13,476 bases of DNA from an uncultured Synechococcus sp. GTDB lineage: Bacteria; Cyanobacteriota; Cyanobacteriia; PCC-6307; Cyanobiaceae. The stretch covers positions 1 through 13,476 of the forward strand of contig CAJWIC010000018.1 of assembly GCA_913040905.1 (NCBI GenBank), in the 5' to 3' direction. The translations under genes and the position numbers were made by a program. The notes beneath the pieces are model-generated. The model saw nothing but the letters and a program-made list of their open reading frames with translations. It searched no databases and had not been told where the DNA came from. Below are positions 1-8,136 of this stretch, in pieces. Positions within the stretch are counted from its first letter, which is position 1, and each line of letters opens with the position of its first letter.

Positions 1-2104
1 ACCAGTCGTCGTTGAGGGAGCTCACATGAACCAGTCCCTCCACCCTGGTCTCCCCCACCTCGACGAAGAAGCCGTAGCTCTGCACACCGCTGACTCGGCC
101 TTCAGCGTCCTGACCCACCAGCGGTTCAGCGGACCTGGCCTGGACCATCGCCAGCAGGTCCCGTTGCAGCTCGAGCACCTGACGCCGCCGGCTGTTGAGC
201 CGCTGGACCAGGCGGTGGTTCACAACGCCCGTCAGCTTTTGTTCCTGCGCGCCCGTGAACAGCGCCCACTGGAGCTGTTCCGCGCAACCACGACGACCGA
301 GATTGATTCGTTCCTTCTGGCGAACATTCGGACGGTCCTTGCCGTCACTCAGGAGCATCTGAATGATCTGCTGGTTGGCCAGCTGCGCGTAGCTCAAGGA
401 CGCGCAGCACCAGGGGACCGGCGGAAGATCCGATTCAACGGTGCCGTCCTCGTCGTTGTGGTCCTGTGGCTTGATTTCGGCCTGGAACTGCGGGTGTGCC
501 AGGGCATGGCTCAGTTGCTGCTCCAACACCCGGCGTTGATCTGACTCCGCGAACACCGTGATCAGTTCCTGCGCCGTCGGGCTGCCATCGTCATCCAGTT
601 CGAGGGGGAGATCCAGGGCTACGGCGGTTTTCGCCACATCGGTCAGCACCGCTGTGTCAGGTTCGCTGCAGATCCTTGAGATGCCGGGGAGCTGCAGTGC
701 GGCGCGGTGCTGACCCCAGGCACGATCGGCCGCTCTCAGCAGTGGTTGAAGGATGGAGTTGGGATCGGTGCGATCGATCACATCAAGCCATCGGTGGGAC
801 TGGCCACTGGGATCGGCCCAACGAAGATCTCCAAGGGCATCCAGCTGTGGCGGCCGTAGATCGAGGGCTACCGATCCAGTGGACCGTTCATGGGCGATCA
901 GACAGTCAGCGCAGAAGAACAGGGTCTGCAGTTGGCCCAGTTGATCTTTGATCGATTTCAACGCTGCCGGGATGCTGCGCGATTTGGGTTTGCGCTCTGC
1001 CAGGGCGCGGAGCTGGGTGACGCTGACCCCGGCGACCGGGCGAATGGTGCTGAGCATGAACTCCCAGTCCGTCAGGTTGCCGTCGGCATCGATGTCCAGA
1101 CGTACCGTCAGGGCGTCGCTGGATTCCCCCTCCTTGAACCGACAGGCCTTCGTGAGGGCTGGTGTGAGAAGGGACTGCCATTCCTCACCCATGCAGATGG
1201 CTTCAGCGCGTTCTCGGAGCCAGAGATCGAGACTGTTCCCTTGGCCGAACCGCTCTGCAACGGACGGCGCATGCAACCACAGGCGACTGCCGCCATCCCT
1301 TGCCTCCACGTGGACCGCAGGCAAAGGTGGAGCATCACGGTGCTGCCAGCTGCTCAGCAGTAATGACGGCTGATCGGTCAGATCGGTGCGACCTTTGCTT
1401 GCAGTGGACTTGACGGAGCCCCGGGGAGCCGCTGGTCGTTCGTGCAGACCGGTTTTGGTCAGCAACAAGTCGCGGTCAGCGGCAGGACCTGCATTGAGAG
1501 GCAGCGGTCGTGCCACATGACCCTGGGCTGGATGCTGCGCAACCGGGTAACGATCGATCTTCACTTCAACAACGGCCGTTGCCGATTCGTCCTGCAGGTG
1601 CTCTTCCGCTTCCGTCGGCAGCTCGATGCTGGTGAGCATGCGGTCATCCAACGGAGCCGCCACCAACCGATCCTGCTGCCGCTCCACCTGGGCAAGCAGG
1701 GACCGGGTACTGCGTTCAAGAATGCATTGAACTTCGCCTTCCGGCGAACGTCGACGACCGCCCTCACGGGTGACGCGCACCAGGACGCGATCGCCATTCC
1801 AGGCGTGATTCAGGTAGTGGTCACGGATATAGATGTCATCGCCACCGTCATCGCGGATGGCGAAACAGAATCCCTTGCTACTGCAACGCAGCCGGGCATC
1901 CAACAGGTCTTCACAGCGATCGCGCAGGAGTCCATCGTCTTCCTGACGGCTGAGGAGACCCAGCTTGCTCAGACCATGAAGAGCAAGATCCAGCCTGTCC
2001 TTGTCAGCCTTGTTTGTCAGCTTGAGGATTTTTGCCAGCGTGGCCTTAGGAACTGGCTGGTCATAGGAAAGCTGATCCAGCAGGTCAGCGACCGAGAACT
2101 TCAT
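1..2104 (-). CDS. RNase R/II-like protein with a degenerate RNB catalytic domain (3' end outside window)
   Basis: An open frame of 701 codons runs from ATG at 2104 to the left edge. The order of domains matches RNase R. A winged-helix-like start covers about residues 1-60 (MKFSVADLLDQL). An OB/cold-shock region follows at about 75-170, with KGFCFAIRDDGGDDIYI and WNGDRVLVRV. An RNB-like region spans about 245-600, and an S1 domain starts near 666 (RVSGVQSYGFFVEVG...VEGLVHVSSL). Family members are processive 3'-5' exoribonucleases using Mg held by an I-D-x6-D-x-D-D cluster. Here the aligned stretch (residues 249-262) reads LLSSWQHRDAPPLP, with P259-P260 where the Asp pair is expected. The later TSPxRRYxDL motif reads ASLSYAQL (568-575). 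The fold seems kept but the active site lost, so exonuclease activity is doubtful. RNA binding or a regulatory role is inference. A GTG at 2131 is an alternative start; neither start has a clear ribosome-binding site. It is last in the cluster after the two UPF0016 genes, with a 95 bp gap. Confidence 0.85.
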   Translation of the reverse strand, partial: MKFSVADLLDQLSYDQPVPKATLAKILKLTNKADKDRLDLALHGLSKLGLLSRQEDDGLLRDRCEDLLDARLRCSSKGFCFAIRDDGGDDIYIRDHYLNHAWNGDRVLVRVTREGGRRRSPEGEVQCILERSTRSLLAQVERQQDRLVAAPLDDRMLTSIELPTEAEEHLQDESATAVVEVKIDRYPVAQHPAQGHVARPLPLNAGPAADRDLLLTKTGLHERPAAPRGSVKSTASKGRTDLTDQPSLLLSSWQHRDAPPLPAVHVEARDGGSRLWLHAPSVAERFGQGNSLDLWLRERAEAICMGEEWQSLLTPALTKACRFKEGESSDALTVRLDIDADGNLTDWEFMLSTIRPVAGVSVTQLRALAERKPKSRSIPAALKSIKDQLGQLQTLFFCADCLIAHERSTGSVALDLRPPQLDALGDLRWADPSGQSHRWLDVIDRTDPNSILQPLLRAADRAWGQHRAALQLPGISRICSEPDTAVLTDVAKTAVALDLPLELDDDGSPTAQELITVFAESDQRRVLEQQLSHALAHPQFQAEIKPQDHNDEDGTVESDLPPVPWCCASLSYAQLANQQIIQMLLSDGKDRPNVRQKERINLGRRGCAEQLQWALFTGAQEQKLTGVVNHRLVQRLNSRRRQVLELQRDLLAMVQARSAEPLVGQDAEGRVSGVQSYGFFVEVGETRVEGLVHVSSLNDDW

Positions 2105-2199
2105 GATGGGGTTGTCGAATCCGGCCTTCACGACCGGGGGATGTTCGGAGCGGCCGAAGGAGATGCCGGGCCGTGCAGAGAGCTCCAACCCGACCCAGT

Positions 2200-2505
2200 T
2201 TATGAGTCGACCTGGTCGTCTTCAGCACCTCCATCGCTGTTGCGCATCAGCAGCTGCGATCCGATGATCAGGAAACCGATGGCGGCCAGAAGCTGAAGCC
2301 ATTCGGTCGGGATCAGGCTGGCGATCGACCCACCGGCCATCGCACCCAACAGACTGGCCAGAACAAGGGCCGTGGAGGATCCCAGAAACACCGCCAGGGG
2401 CCTGTCGGATGTGCCGCTGAGGGCCACTGTGGCCAGTTGGGTCTTGTCTCCCAGTTCAGCCAGGAACACGGTCAGAAAGGTTGAGATCAGAAGGGAGAGA
2501 TCCAT
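2200..2505 (-). CDS. half-size UPF0016 (TMEM165/Gdt1/Mnx-like) cation transporter, second of pair
   Basis: This 101-residue membrane protein has a single UPF0016 repeat. The family signature E-L-G-D-K-T-Q-L-A-T sits at residues 17-26 in the first hydrophobic segment. Two more hydrophobic segments follow at about 36-58 and 66-87, and the tail is acidic (DGGAEDDQVDS). Full-length family members (Gdt1, TMEM165, plastid PAM71, cyanobacterial Mnx) carry two such repeats of opposite orientation and move Mn2+ or Ca2+ against protons. This gene encodes only one repeat, and its paralog lies 3 bp upstream, so a heterodimer of the two products is the natural reading. Which cation it moves, and whether it sits in the thylakoid or plasma membrane, cannot be read from the sequence. 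The ATG at 2505 leaves only 3 bp after the preceding stop, which implies co-transcription. Confidence 0.9.
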   Translation of the reverse strand: MDLSLLISTFLTVFLAELGDKTQLATVALSGTSDRPLAVFLGSSTALVLASLLGAMAGGSIASLIPTEWLQLLAAIGFLIIGSQLLMRNSDGGAEDDQVDS

Positions 2506-2508
2506 CGT

Positions 2509-2841
2509 TCAGAGTCCTGTCGTGTCCAGCAACAGCGTCTGGGCTGCCTGAGCACCCAGCCAGAGCCCCAGGGCGACCATGAGAACTCCCGCCATCGTTT
2601 CCAGACGCTCTGGGGGAAGCGTGCGGGCCAGCCACTGCCCCAGCAGGACACCCACCAGGCTCGAACAGATCAGAGCCAAAGCGGCCCCAAGAAACACAAG
2701 CCAGGGTGAGCCGGACTGAGCCGAAAGGAGCAGTGTCGCCAGCTGGGTTTTGTCCCCCAGCTCGGCGATGAACACGGTGCCGAAGGTGCTGAACACAACG
2801 GCAGCAAAGCCAGGGCGTGCGGCTTCCTTGATTTCAGCCAT
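2509..2841 (-). CDS. half-size UPF0016 (TMEM165/Gdt1/Mnx-like) cation transporter, first of pair
   Basis: This 110-residue membrane protein has one UPF0016 repeat. The signature ELGDKTQLAT is at residues 27-36, and three hydrophobic segments lie at about 11-28, 46-66 and 82-105. The ten-residue signature is identical to that of the next gene, while the rest of the two proteins differs (for example AQSGSPWLVF against GTSDRPLAVF). The pair is therefore an old duplication rather than a recent copy. The start chosen is ATG at 2841, because the frame further upstream reads antisense-like residues inside the preceding gene. A GTG sits directly before it at 2844. The gene overlaps the end of the YkgJ-type gene by 8 bp, a sign of translational coupling. 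It is likely a subunit of a Mn2+ or Ca2+/H+ exchanger made with the next gene's product. Confidence 0.9.
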   Translation of the reverse strand: MAEIKEAARPGFAAVVFSTFGTVFIAELGDKTQLATLLLSAQSGSPWLVFLGAALALICSSLVGVLLGQWLARTLPPERLETMAGVLMVALGLWLGAQAAQTLLLDTTGL

Positions 2842-3199
2842 CACCGCGGCGTTGGACTCGGTTGAACCTACGCAGCTCCCTGCTGCGACCGCCGTAGACC
2901 GAGCGGATCTGCTGCTGGCAACAGTCGATGGCAAAGGCATCCAGCTGATCGGGCTCGATGTTGAACAACTGATCCATGCAACTGACTCGGCAGAATCTGG
3001 GCCGATCGTCATAAATCCGACAGCGTCGACCACCGCTGTCGTAGTGGATGCACCAGCCGTCTCTCCCCACCATCGATAGGTAGGTGGCCTGGTCCTCGTC
3101 GTTGAGGGCTTCAAGCGCTTCGGCCCGTTCCTCCGGTGCGAGGCGACAACAGGCTCCGCATTGGGAGATGCATTGCCACTGTTGGGTCCGATCGGTCAT
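2834..3199 (-). CDS. YkgJ/UPF0153-type cysteine-rich (zinc/iron-chelating domain) protein
   Basis: This is a 121-residue soluble protein. A cysteine cluster C10-x3-C14-x2-C17-C18 (CISQCGACC) opens it, followed by C50, C60, C70 and C74 in WCIHYDSGGRRCRIYDDRPRFCRVSC, where the break between residue runs is only for reading. A C93-C94 pair comes later. This is the CxxCxxCC-type pattern of the family annotated as a putative zinc- or iron-chelating domain. Its biochemical role is not established. The gene starts at ATG 3199 and is first in a compact minus-strand cluster, overlapping the first UPF0016 gene by 8 bp. A metal-binding protein coupled to a probable Mn/Ca transporter pair suggests a shared metal-handling role, which is inference. 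Its upstream region carries several inverted repeats that could be operators. Confidence 0.85.
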   Translation of the reverse strand: MTDRTQQWQCISQCGACCRLAPEERAEALEALNDEDQATYLSMVGRDGWCIHYDSGGRRCRIYDDRPRFCRVSCMDQLFNIEPDQLDAFAIDCCQQQIRSVYGGRSRELRRFNRVQRRGDG

Positions 3200-6825: not shown

Positions 6826-7160
6826 GTTCCCTGCAGCACACACGGCTCTCTCGACTGCAGAACCGCGTTGGTGACTCCATCGCAGCAGCGTTCTCCGGTC
6901 CCTGGTGGAGCCGCAGTCTGCAGATCATCGGCTTGTTGATGGGCTTTCTGCTCGGCAGCAGCCTGACGGAGTACCTCAAATCTGCCGTTGGTCTGCGCAC
7001 GATTTCCGCCCTCACGACGCTGATCGCCTGTGAACTGCTGGTGGCTCTGCGTCGACGGGTTCTGAAGACTCCCATGGCATTCCACTGGCGTCTGCTCGAC
7101 AACCTCCGGCTTGGTTTCGTCTATGCCGTTGTTCTGGAGGCATTCAAAGTTGGATCCTGA
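6822..7160 (+). CDS. DUF565 / Ycf20-family membrane protein
   Basis: This 112-residue protein has a basic N terminus (MSSLQHTRLSRLQNRVGDS), two membrane segments (about 33-49, IIGLLMGFLLGSSL, and 60-76, TISALTTLIACELLVAL) and a basic C-terminal region. The pattern FLLGSSL followed by a second helix matches the DUF565/Ycf20 family of cyanobacteria and plastids. In algae and plants these proteins have been linked to non-photochemical quenching. A molecular function is not known. The gene starts inside the last codons of the CbbY-like gene (ATGA overlap). It ends 38 bp into the chosen start of the glycerate kinase gene, so the three are probably one transcript with coupled translation. Confidence 0.75.
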   Translation: MSSLQHTRLSRLQNRVGDSIAAAFSGPWWSRSLQIIGLLMGFLLGSSLTEYLKSAVGLRTISALTTLIACELLVALRRRVLKTPMAFHWRLLDNLRLGFVYAVVLEAFKVGS

Positions 7161-8136
7161 TGGCCAACGCGATATTCCACCCGGCGAGCAGCAGTGTCTG
7201 CTTCGCTATCTCGACGTCGAGGATCACGCGGCCTGGGAACAGCAGTGGCGGACCAGCCAACTGTTCGAATCCACGCTGAATCTCTGGCCCGCCAGTGCTT
7301 CACCCGACTGGCTCTGGAGTCTCGGTTTGCCGTTGCTCACCGAGGCAGCAAGGGATCGATCTCAACGTCGGTTGATCGGCTTGAGCGCTCTGCCGGGATG
7401 CGGAAAAACAACGCTTGGCCATTGGCTTGAACAGGCCGCGTTGCAGCTTGACCTGCCGCTTCAAGTGGTCTCGATCGATGACTTCTACTACGAGGCGGAG
7501 CGCCTGGAGCAGGCCATGCGCGGCAATCCCTGGGCCGTTCCCCGTGCCCTCCCAGGCAGTCATGACGTGCCATTGCTGCATCAGAGCCTTTGCCGATGGA
7601 AACGTGGTGAGACCGTGGATCTACCGCAGTTCGACAAGTCTCTCCGTCAGGGTCGTGGAGACCGCTCAGGCTGGCGCAGCTGTTCGGCGGAGATCCTGGT
7701 GCTGGAAGGCTGGTTCGTCGGCTGTCAGCCGCTCGCGCAGAACGTGTCAATCGAACATGGCTGTGAGCATCTCTCTCCGCCAATCCGTTCAGAGGAACTG
7801 AAGGCACGGGTGCACGTTCAGGACGCACTGCGCAGGTATCAATCAGTTTGGGCAGAACTCGACACTCTTTGGCAAATCAAAGCCCAGGACATTCGATCGC
7901 CTCAGATCTGGAAGCGTCAGCAGGAGAACCAGATGCTGCGTGAGCAGGGCGTTGCTCTCGACAACGCCACACTGCTCGGGTTCATTCGCATGATCCTCGC
8001 GGCGATTCCGCCACGGAGCTTTGATCAGATGGATGCGGATGTTTGCGTCGAGGTTGACCCGGATCGGCGGCTACGCCAGCTGCGGATCAACGAACGGACT
8101 CAGGACTCGCCGTCGTCGGTATCCCTCACGGGATAA
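7123..8136 (+). CDS. glyK: D-glycerate 3-kinase (plant/cyanobacterial GLYK type)
   Basis: This protein of about 337 residues phosphorylates D-glycerate to 3-phosphoglycerate, the last step of the photorespiratory cycle. The visible features are those of the P-loop GLYK family: Walker [13 protein letters not shown] (about 86-97), [10 protein letters not shown] (117-126), GSHD (145-148), the FDKS-x5-GRGDR segment (170-182) and LVLEGWFVG (192-200). It is unrelated to the GlxK and GckA kinases. The start is uncertain: ATG 7123 overlaps the DUF565 gene by 38 bp, while TTG 7150 would cut the overlap to 11 bp and remove nine residues. Both leave the kinase core intact. The 3' end overlaps rpmF on the opposite strand by 37 bp, so no independent terminator lies between them. 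Confidence 0.88.

Follow-up and report, generated by a model that had tools for sequence, protein, structure and literature searches.

The gene at positions 2 to 2104 on the minus strand of the window (the whole 13,476-nucleotide stretch of DNA analysed here) is, judged from its sequence, the picocyanobacterial ortholog of Zam, a protein family already described in 2022. Its product is very probably an RNase R-type paralogue that is non-hydrolytic and acts as a redox-switched factor binding RNA and/or protein, with Rnb as the real exonuclease. The family itself was known; what is added is its picocyanobacterial member and some clade-specific features, namely a graded erosion of the active site, the signature W-x5-P-x-L-P-A, a linkage to GDT1 genes and a natural loss of the first redox cysteine in Synechococcus RCC307. 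Picocyanobacteria dominate the ocean's phototrophs, and they carry the most eroded form of this pseudo-ribonuclease. An earlier note, made from the letters of this DNA, had described the gene as a selected, non-hydrolytic relative of RNase R; the description is well supported, with the product probably non-hydrolytic, and had already been published for Zam, a family that the note did not recognise.

A Zam Gene at the Edge of the Window

The frame (2-2188, minus strand) is open for 729 codons and exits the window at base 2, before its stop codon. Its ATG lies at 2102-2104 (minus), consistent with the end coordinate of 2104 in the earlier note, and an in-frame TTG upstream of this ATG lengthens the frame to 2188. 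The entire matching protein, P0001 (791 aa), differs from the frame at no more than 3 of 729 residues, the alternative start codon being translated as L in this comparison; the differences listed are residue 432 (A here, S in P0001) and residue 567 (Q here, H in P0001). Four Pfam domains, OB_RNB (65 bits), RNB (128), CSD2 (33) and a truncated S1 (27), all score above their cut-offs, which bears out the earlier note's frame of more than 700 codons with the RNase R domain order. CSD1, CSD2, RNB and S1 are found in one protein, as in Zam, S1 being completed in P0001. The gene and its domains are:

2..2104, minus strand: zam, RNase R-like pseudo-nuclease; 3' end cut off, with 62 residues missing relative to P0001
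1727..1894, minus strand: cold-shock domain 1 (OB_RNB, Pfam), residues 99-154 of the frame; the best conserved domain, followed by S1
485..1390, minus strand: RNB domain (Pfam) without catalytic residues, residues 267-568
5..118, minus strand: first part of the S1 domain (Pfam), residues 691-728; P0001 continues through S1

The best matches among solved structures are Ribonuclease R chains, 8cdu (E 4e-24), which we take to be from B. subtilis, and 5xgu. The NCBIfam model RNase_R (TIGR02063) gives zam 146 bits against a cut-off of 598, and because the score is so far under the cut-off we regard the gene as a divergent relative of RNase R; identity as an active RNase R was ruled out by the same score. 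A tblastn search against plasmids returned 37 records, none cyanobacterial by organism name, and those with annotation were rnr (one also rlmB). Many databases still name Zam proteins ribonuclease R, and four Zams (P0083, P0144, P0156 and P0214) are misannotated publicly as ABC transporter permease or iron ABC transporter substrate-binding protein.

Zam takes its name from resistance to acetazolamide. Thomas et al. (2022; PMC9145284) describe the family as a clade of cyanobacterial RNB proteins in which the active site is degenerate and CSD1 has two conserved, redox-active cysteines. The same study gives a deletion phenotype for PCC 7002 and PCC 6803 and states that PCC 7002 Zam, aggregation-prone in vitro, displayed neither nuclease activity nor RNA binding (data not shown there). 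In Synechocystis, zam is among the genes whose repressed clones grow worse in L-lactate (PMC7125299). In the main text of PMC9145284, Prochlorococcus, the word marine, Synechococcus elongatus, WH8102 and Gloeobacter are all unmentioned.

For comparison we assembled 106 distinct Zams (the window's own, 17 from named loci or their genomes, and 88 from a sample of the phylum, after 7 identical rows had been dropped) and 28 Rnb-type rows, which represent 27 genes, one having been fetched twice, and include five rows (four genes) from genomes without Zam. An RNB protein of 503 aa (L113) that fits neither class was left out. In a quick tree without bootstrap, which carries long-branch warnings and a long picocyanobacterial branch (1.0), the 106 Zams group together, apart from 7 Rnb/RNB outgroup rows, in one clade with 100% SH-aLRT support. 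The tree holds neither the PCC 7002 nor the PCC 6803 sequence, and orthology to these rests on the phylum-wide sampling.

The Former Active Site and Its Conservation

RNase R and RNase II have four acidic metal residues and an Arg pair within TSPxRRYxDL. In zam, Asp1, Asp3 and Asp4 are replaced and the Arg pair is absent:

1289..1366, minus strand: former Asp cluster (residues 275-300), which now reads SLLLSSWQHRDAPPLPAVHVEARDGG and includes the picocyanobacterial W-x5-P-x-L-P-A
380..409, minus strand: former TSPxRRYxDL motif (residues 594-603), which now reads CCASLSYAQL, without either Arg

A profile-profile alignment (HHalign) of 30 picocyanobacterial Zams with the 28 intact RNB rows gave a probability of 98.6 and an E value of 7.5e-16 over 296 columns. 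It placed LLSSWQHRDA(PP)LPAVHVE on TIDDAETKDI--DDALGLE, a register in which Asp1 has become Ser and the Asp pair Leu-Pro. The earlier reading by eye had the same Ser and the same loss of the pair, but its Pro-Pro arises only with its own placement of the two-residue insert; in that register 2 of the 24 rows of the alignment described below have Asp at residue 288. D285, which HHalign sets opposite Asp2, is Asp in 28 of 53 picocyanobacterial proteins and may be one retained, if poorly conserved, Asp, the number of acids counted at position 2 depending on whether the MAFFT or the HHalign register is used. At the second motif, CCASLSYAQL aligns on TSPIRRYSDL without a gap, with both Arg lost and the Tyr kept; the loss of Arg noted earlier stands, and the two-residue gap proposed with it (ASL--SYAQL) is unnecessary. 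Without the Asp residues of the metal site and the substrate Arg pair, the zam product most likely cannot hydrolyse RNA. In E. coli RNase II, Asp209 is needed for cleavage and not for RNA binding.

The altered site is common to the gene's relatives. When P0001 was aligned with 23 homologues (58-89% identical to it), P287 and P290 were found in 24/24 rows and Arg at neither position of the former pair. A frameshift or local error at the site was ruled out because the homologues share it. What is more, the dead site is itself conserved: in an alignment of 53 picocyanobacterial proteins (A2), chosen from the 120 matches listed and 80 loci, W281 is present in 53, P287 in 52, P290 and A291 in 51 and L289 in 48. 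Given a conserved W-x5-P-x-L-P-A inside a dead site, the pocket looks repurposed, with a signature of its own.

These residues also bear on whether zam is a decaying gene or the product of a local assembly error, a reading to which we give a negligible probability. Conservation of the majority residue among picocyanobacteria is low in the N-terminal part (0.52), in the RNB domain (0.53) and in the stretch that follows RNB (0.49), compared with 0.82 in CSD1, 0.77 in S1 and 0.60 in CSD2, and the picocyanobacterial branch is long, as decay might produce. Against this, the pseudo-site signature is kept, zam is present in Prochlorococcus loci too, and a single closed frame of at least 700 residues is found in 76 of 80 named loci, the other four being truncated by a contig end rather than a stop. 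Between the window and the nearest locus used (L006), dN/dS is 0.104 over 701 codons, an approximate value, as dS is about 1.5 and synonymous sites are near saturation; three other, less saturated picocyanobacterial pairs gave 0.07, 0.11 and 0.17. The gene is under purifying selection. For practical purposes decay is refuted by the conservation data and dN/dS, and the statement in the earlier note that this is not a decayed gene was correct.

Graded Erosion across Cyanobacterial Zams

All 28 Rnb rows have Asp at positions 1, 3 and 4 and both Arg of RRY, position 2 being Asp in 12 and Glu in 16. None of the 106 Zams has four Asps; Asp1, 3 and 4 together occur in 2, the Asp pair in 6 and RR in 37. 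Among the 30 picocyanobacterial Zams, an acid at position 3 or 4 occurs in none, Glu at position 1 in four and RR in one, while the other 76 include 36 with RR. The erosion of the Zam active site is, on these alignments, graded, with picocyanobacteria at the extreme. The earlier note had proposed that the two motifs were lost independently; the data do not demonstrate this, the Asp cluster being damaged in 106/106 and the Arg pair kept in 36/76 of the non-picocyanobacterial proteins. No-regain parsimony on the quick tree has the Asp pair lost independently 7 times, a figure that drops to at least 1 once branches with support below 95 are collapsed; the corresponding count for RR is inflated by L068, one picocyanobacterial row that reads RR. 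In a 24-row clade that holds L114, whose named relatives among the matches listed are Dolichospermum, Anabaena, Nostoc and similar genera, E-N replaces the Asp pair and RR is kept.

In two Zams, L097 (genome G035) and L098 (G019), Asp1, the Asp pair and RRY are all present, but the stretch from Asp1 to the pair is 3-5 residues longer and position 2 has no aligned Asp; these proteins are possible weakly active intermediates. At the other end, L200 (G093) is a highly divergent Zam from which both CSD1 cysteines and the entire active-site loop are missing.

An alternative is that the RNB fold of Zam has kept some ability to cleave RNA, either weakly or with its metals arranged differently, which we consider very unlikely for the window's gene. 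The Asp pair and RR are kept together in 6 of the 76 non-picocyanobacterial Zams, two of them also with Asp1, and the literature on Anabaena points the same way. There, Alr1240 is reported to have RNase II-like activity, degrading unstructured RNA only, and to stimulate RNase E, in a 2022 review whose gene list has sll1290 and sll1910 from Synechocystis next to all4450 and alr1240 from Anabaena (PMC10989914); and Thomas et al. identify as Zam the Anabaena protein that binds RNase E and find the canonical site in no Zam (PMC9145284). If the review is correct about the activity and Thomas et al. about the identity, active Zams exist. Alr1240 may be Rnb, the activity may belong to a Zam whose site is altered, or it may have come from a contaminant in vitro; the name PCC 7120 is absent among the 120 Zam matches listed. 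On the other side, the window's Zam has neither Asp1, Asp3, Asp4 nor either Arg, positions 3 and 4 are without acid in 30/30 picocyanobacterial Zams, of which 29 have lost RR, and rnb is essential in PCC 7002 though zam is present, which the authors take to speak against nuclease redundancy (PMC9145284). A non-hydrolytic Zam remains our preferred reading of the window's gene.

A Second RNB Gene with an Intact Site in Related Genomes

A non-hydrolytic Zam would stand beside a working enzyme, and the second, intact RNB protein that the earlier note had suggested looking for was found in 7 of the 8 related genomes reached via named loci, including that of L006, the nearest tree row to the window. 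In the eighth, a Prochlorococcus record (L005) whose genome may be incomplete, Zam alone was seen. The Synechocystis Rnb (Sll1290, the number being from PMC10989914) is an active RNase II (PMC3293843).

Across the phylum sample, 96 of 194 genomes have an RNB match and 93 an OB_RNB match. In 89 genomes the OB_RNB match is a strong one, at E 1.7e-9 or better, within a frame of at least 699 residues; the remaining four (G012, G021, G026 and G049) are weak, with E 4e-5 or worse. Zam is thus kept by 89 of the 96 genomes with any RNB match, the seven others being G012, G018, G026, G043, G046, G055 and G061. All 89 were read, 88 as fetched sequences and G001 through its copy, which is the WH7803 locus L010. 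The other 98 of the 194 sampled genomes have no RNB-domain match and may be non-photosynthetic lineages.

The two genes also differ in their surroundings. Upstream of Rnb, the ribosomal S18 gene rpsR is present in 19 of the 28 rows; upstream of zam it is present at none of 112 loci. Two Rnb rows had 250 or fewer upstream bases, 5 of the 9 rows without S18 are from genomes without Zam, and 7 of the 112 Zam loci are repeat copies of a gene already in the set. A CxxCxxCC-like gene, read by eye, adjoins Rnb in L176.

The Cysteine Pair of CSD1

Zam has two cysteines six residues apart in the L12 loop of CSD1, and both are found in the window's frame:

1883..1885, minus strand: codon of Cys102 (C73 of PCC 7002 Zam), in RLRCSSKGFCFA; invariant in 24/24 rows
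1865..1867, minus strand: codon of Cys108 (C79 of PCC 7002 Zam), placed by alignment, codon checked

Counted from the ATG, C102 and C108 of the frame are residues 74 and 80, with the six-residue spacing of PCC 7002 Zam. Both cysteines are present in 104 of the 106 distinct Zams and in none of the 28 Rnb rows. The first is residue 73 in 67 and residue 74 in 18 of the 87 proteins in which the scan found a start and the motif. In PCC 7002, C73 and C79 are redox-active, with a redox-dependent mobility shift, and the C73S and C79S mutants phenocopy the deletion, so that changing either Cys to Ser abolishes function in vivo (PMC9145284).

Synechococcus RCC307 (L065) naturally has Ser where other Zams have the first redox Cys (ARVRSSSKGFCF); in PCC 7002 this substitution abolishes function. 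The Cys is retained in the other loci with similar identity, namely L070, L071, L073 and L079. With Ser for the first Cys in RCC307 and both cysteines missing from L200, the CSD1 disulfide is not universal.

Gene Neighbourhood

Upstream of zam, a CxxCxxCC gene and two GDT1 genes (2200-3199, minus strand) overlap or abut in an operon-like order:

2200..2505, minus strand: half-size GDT1/UPF0016 gene for a divalent-cation (Mn) exporter, immediately upstream of zam (PF01169, 82 bits)
2509..3114, minus strand: second GDT1/UPF0016 half-size gene, domain at residues 109-183 (PF01169, 86 bits); true start probably internal
2834..3199, minus strand: CxxCxxCC (YkgJ-type) putative metal-chelating protein, next upstream (PF03692)

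Members of UPF0016 have been described as Mn transporters (PMC8236900). Of 81 picocyanobacterial loci, the window included, 71 had more than 1.5 kb upstream. In 70 of these a GDT1 frame lies upstream of zam with its end no more than 400 nt away, distances being taken, as also for UbiX, between stop-to-stop frames; the exception, L060, has it at 566 nt. No GDT1 match was found beside zam in 76 non-picocyanobacterial loci, which, as their flanks are short (medians of 765 bases upstream and 984 downstream, some much shorter), means that it is not adjacent there. A UbiX-like gene lies downstream of zam in 56 of 71 picocyanobacterial loci with more than 0.8 kb downstream and in 38 of the 76 others, some of which have hardly any downstream sequence. 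Being found also outside picocyanobacteria, the zam-UbiX link looks older.

A record titled as a Bifidobacterium breve MAG (L058) has a picocyanobacterial-type zam with GDT1, CxxCxxCC and UbiX; its title looks wrong or the bin contaminated. Elsewhere in the window, a 341-aa frame at 7111-8136 (plus strand) has a P-loop-like motif and no Pfam match, and presumably resembles glycerate kinase-type proteins.

Discussion

The evidence allows us to propose how a non-hydrolytic Zam might work. The Cys pair, in the RNA-contact loop of CSD1, would form or break a disulfide with the photosynthetic redox state. This change would alter binding by the OB-fold/S1 face of Zam, and the altered binding would shift the RNA turnover of photosynthesis genes, possibly via RNase E. 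RNA is a rather likely ligand in this scheme, and RNase E a more doubtful partner.

Alternatively, the main role of Zam may be structural: as an inactive subunit it would hold or block Rnb or RNase E, being their partner or competitor, and its contact with RNA would be of lesser importance. The retained OB and S1 domains, the co-precipitation with RNase E of an Anabaena protein named "RNase II" (PMC10783494) and the redox-gated activation of RNase E proposed by Thomas et al. (PMC9145284) are consistent with this. On the other hand, the RNase E interaction belongs, according to PMC10989914, to Alr1240, a candidate Zam, and no physical link between Zam and Rnb was seen. We consider such a role somewhat unlikely as the main one, and prefer a redox-switched binding factor.

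More speculatively still, and improbable as a whole, the dead RNB pocket of picocyanobacteria may have been rebuilt as a new binding surface (W-x5-P-x-L-P-A) and zam may have joined a Mn-export operon, CxxCxxCC - GDT1 - GDT1 - zam - ubiX, that would couple the cytosolic redox/Mn state, via the CSD1 cysteines, to the turnover of photosystem mRNA. If this were true, picocyanobacterial Zam would be a clade-specific link from metal and redox state to RNA.

Three kinds of Zam can be compared as a graded set: the picocyanobacterial type, the Nostocales type, in which E-N stands for the Asp pair and RR remains, and the six that retain the Asp pair. This set could decide whether nuclease activity exists in any Zam, a point on which two published accounts disagree.

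Compared with known systems, the zam product resembles RNase R (8cdu; 5xgu of E. coli) and RNase II in domain order and sequence similarity and differs in missing their catalytic Asp residues and RR. Cyanobacterial Rnb shares the RNB domain with Zam but has an intact site and, in most rows, the upstream rpsR that Zam loci lack. The closest likeness is to the Zam of Thomas et al. (Synechocystis Sll1910 and PCC 7002 A1543; PMC9145284), in domain order, in the CSD1 cysteines six apart, in the degenerate RNB site, in the Rnb with an intact site alongside, as seen in 7 of 8 related genomes, and in the wide cyanobacterial occurrence. Picocyanobacterial Zams differ from other Zams in that the RR pair is gone (29/30) and W-x5-P-x-L-P-A has been gained, and their genes lie behind a GDT1 gene pair that does not adjoin the other sampled Zams.
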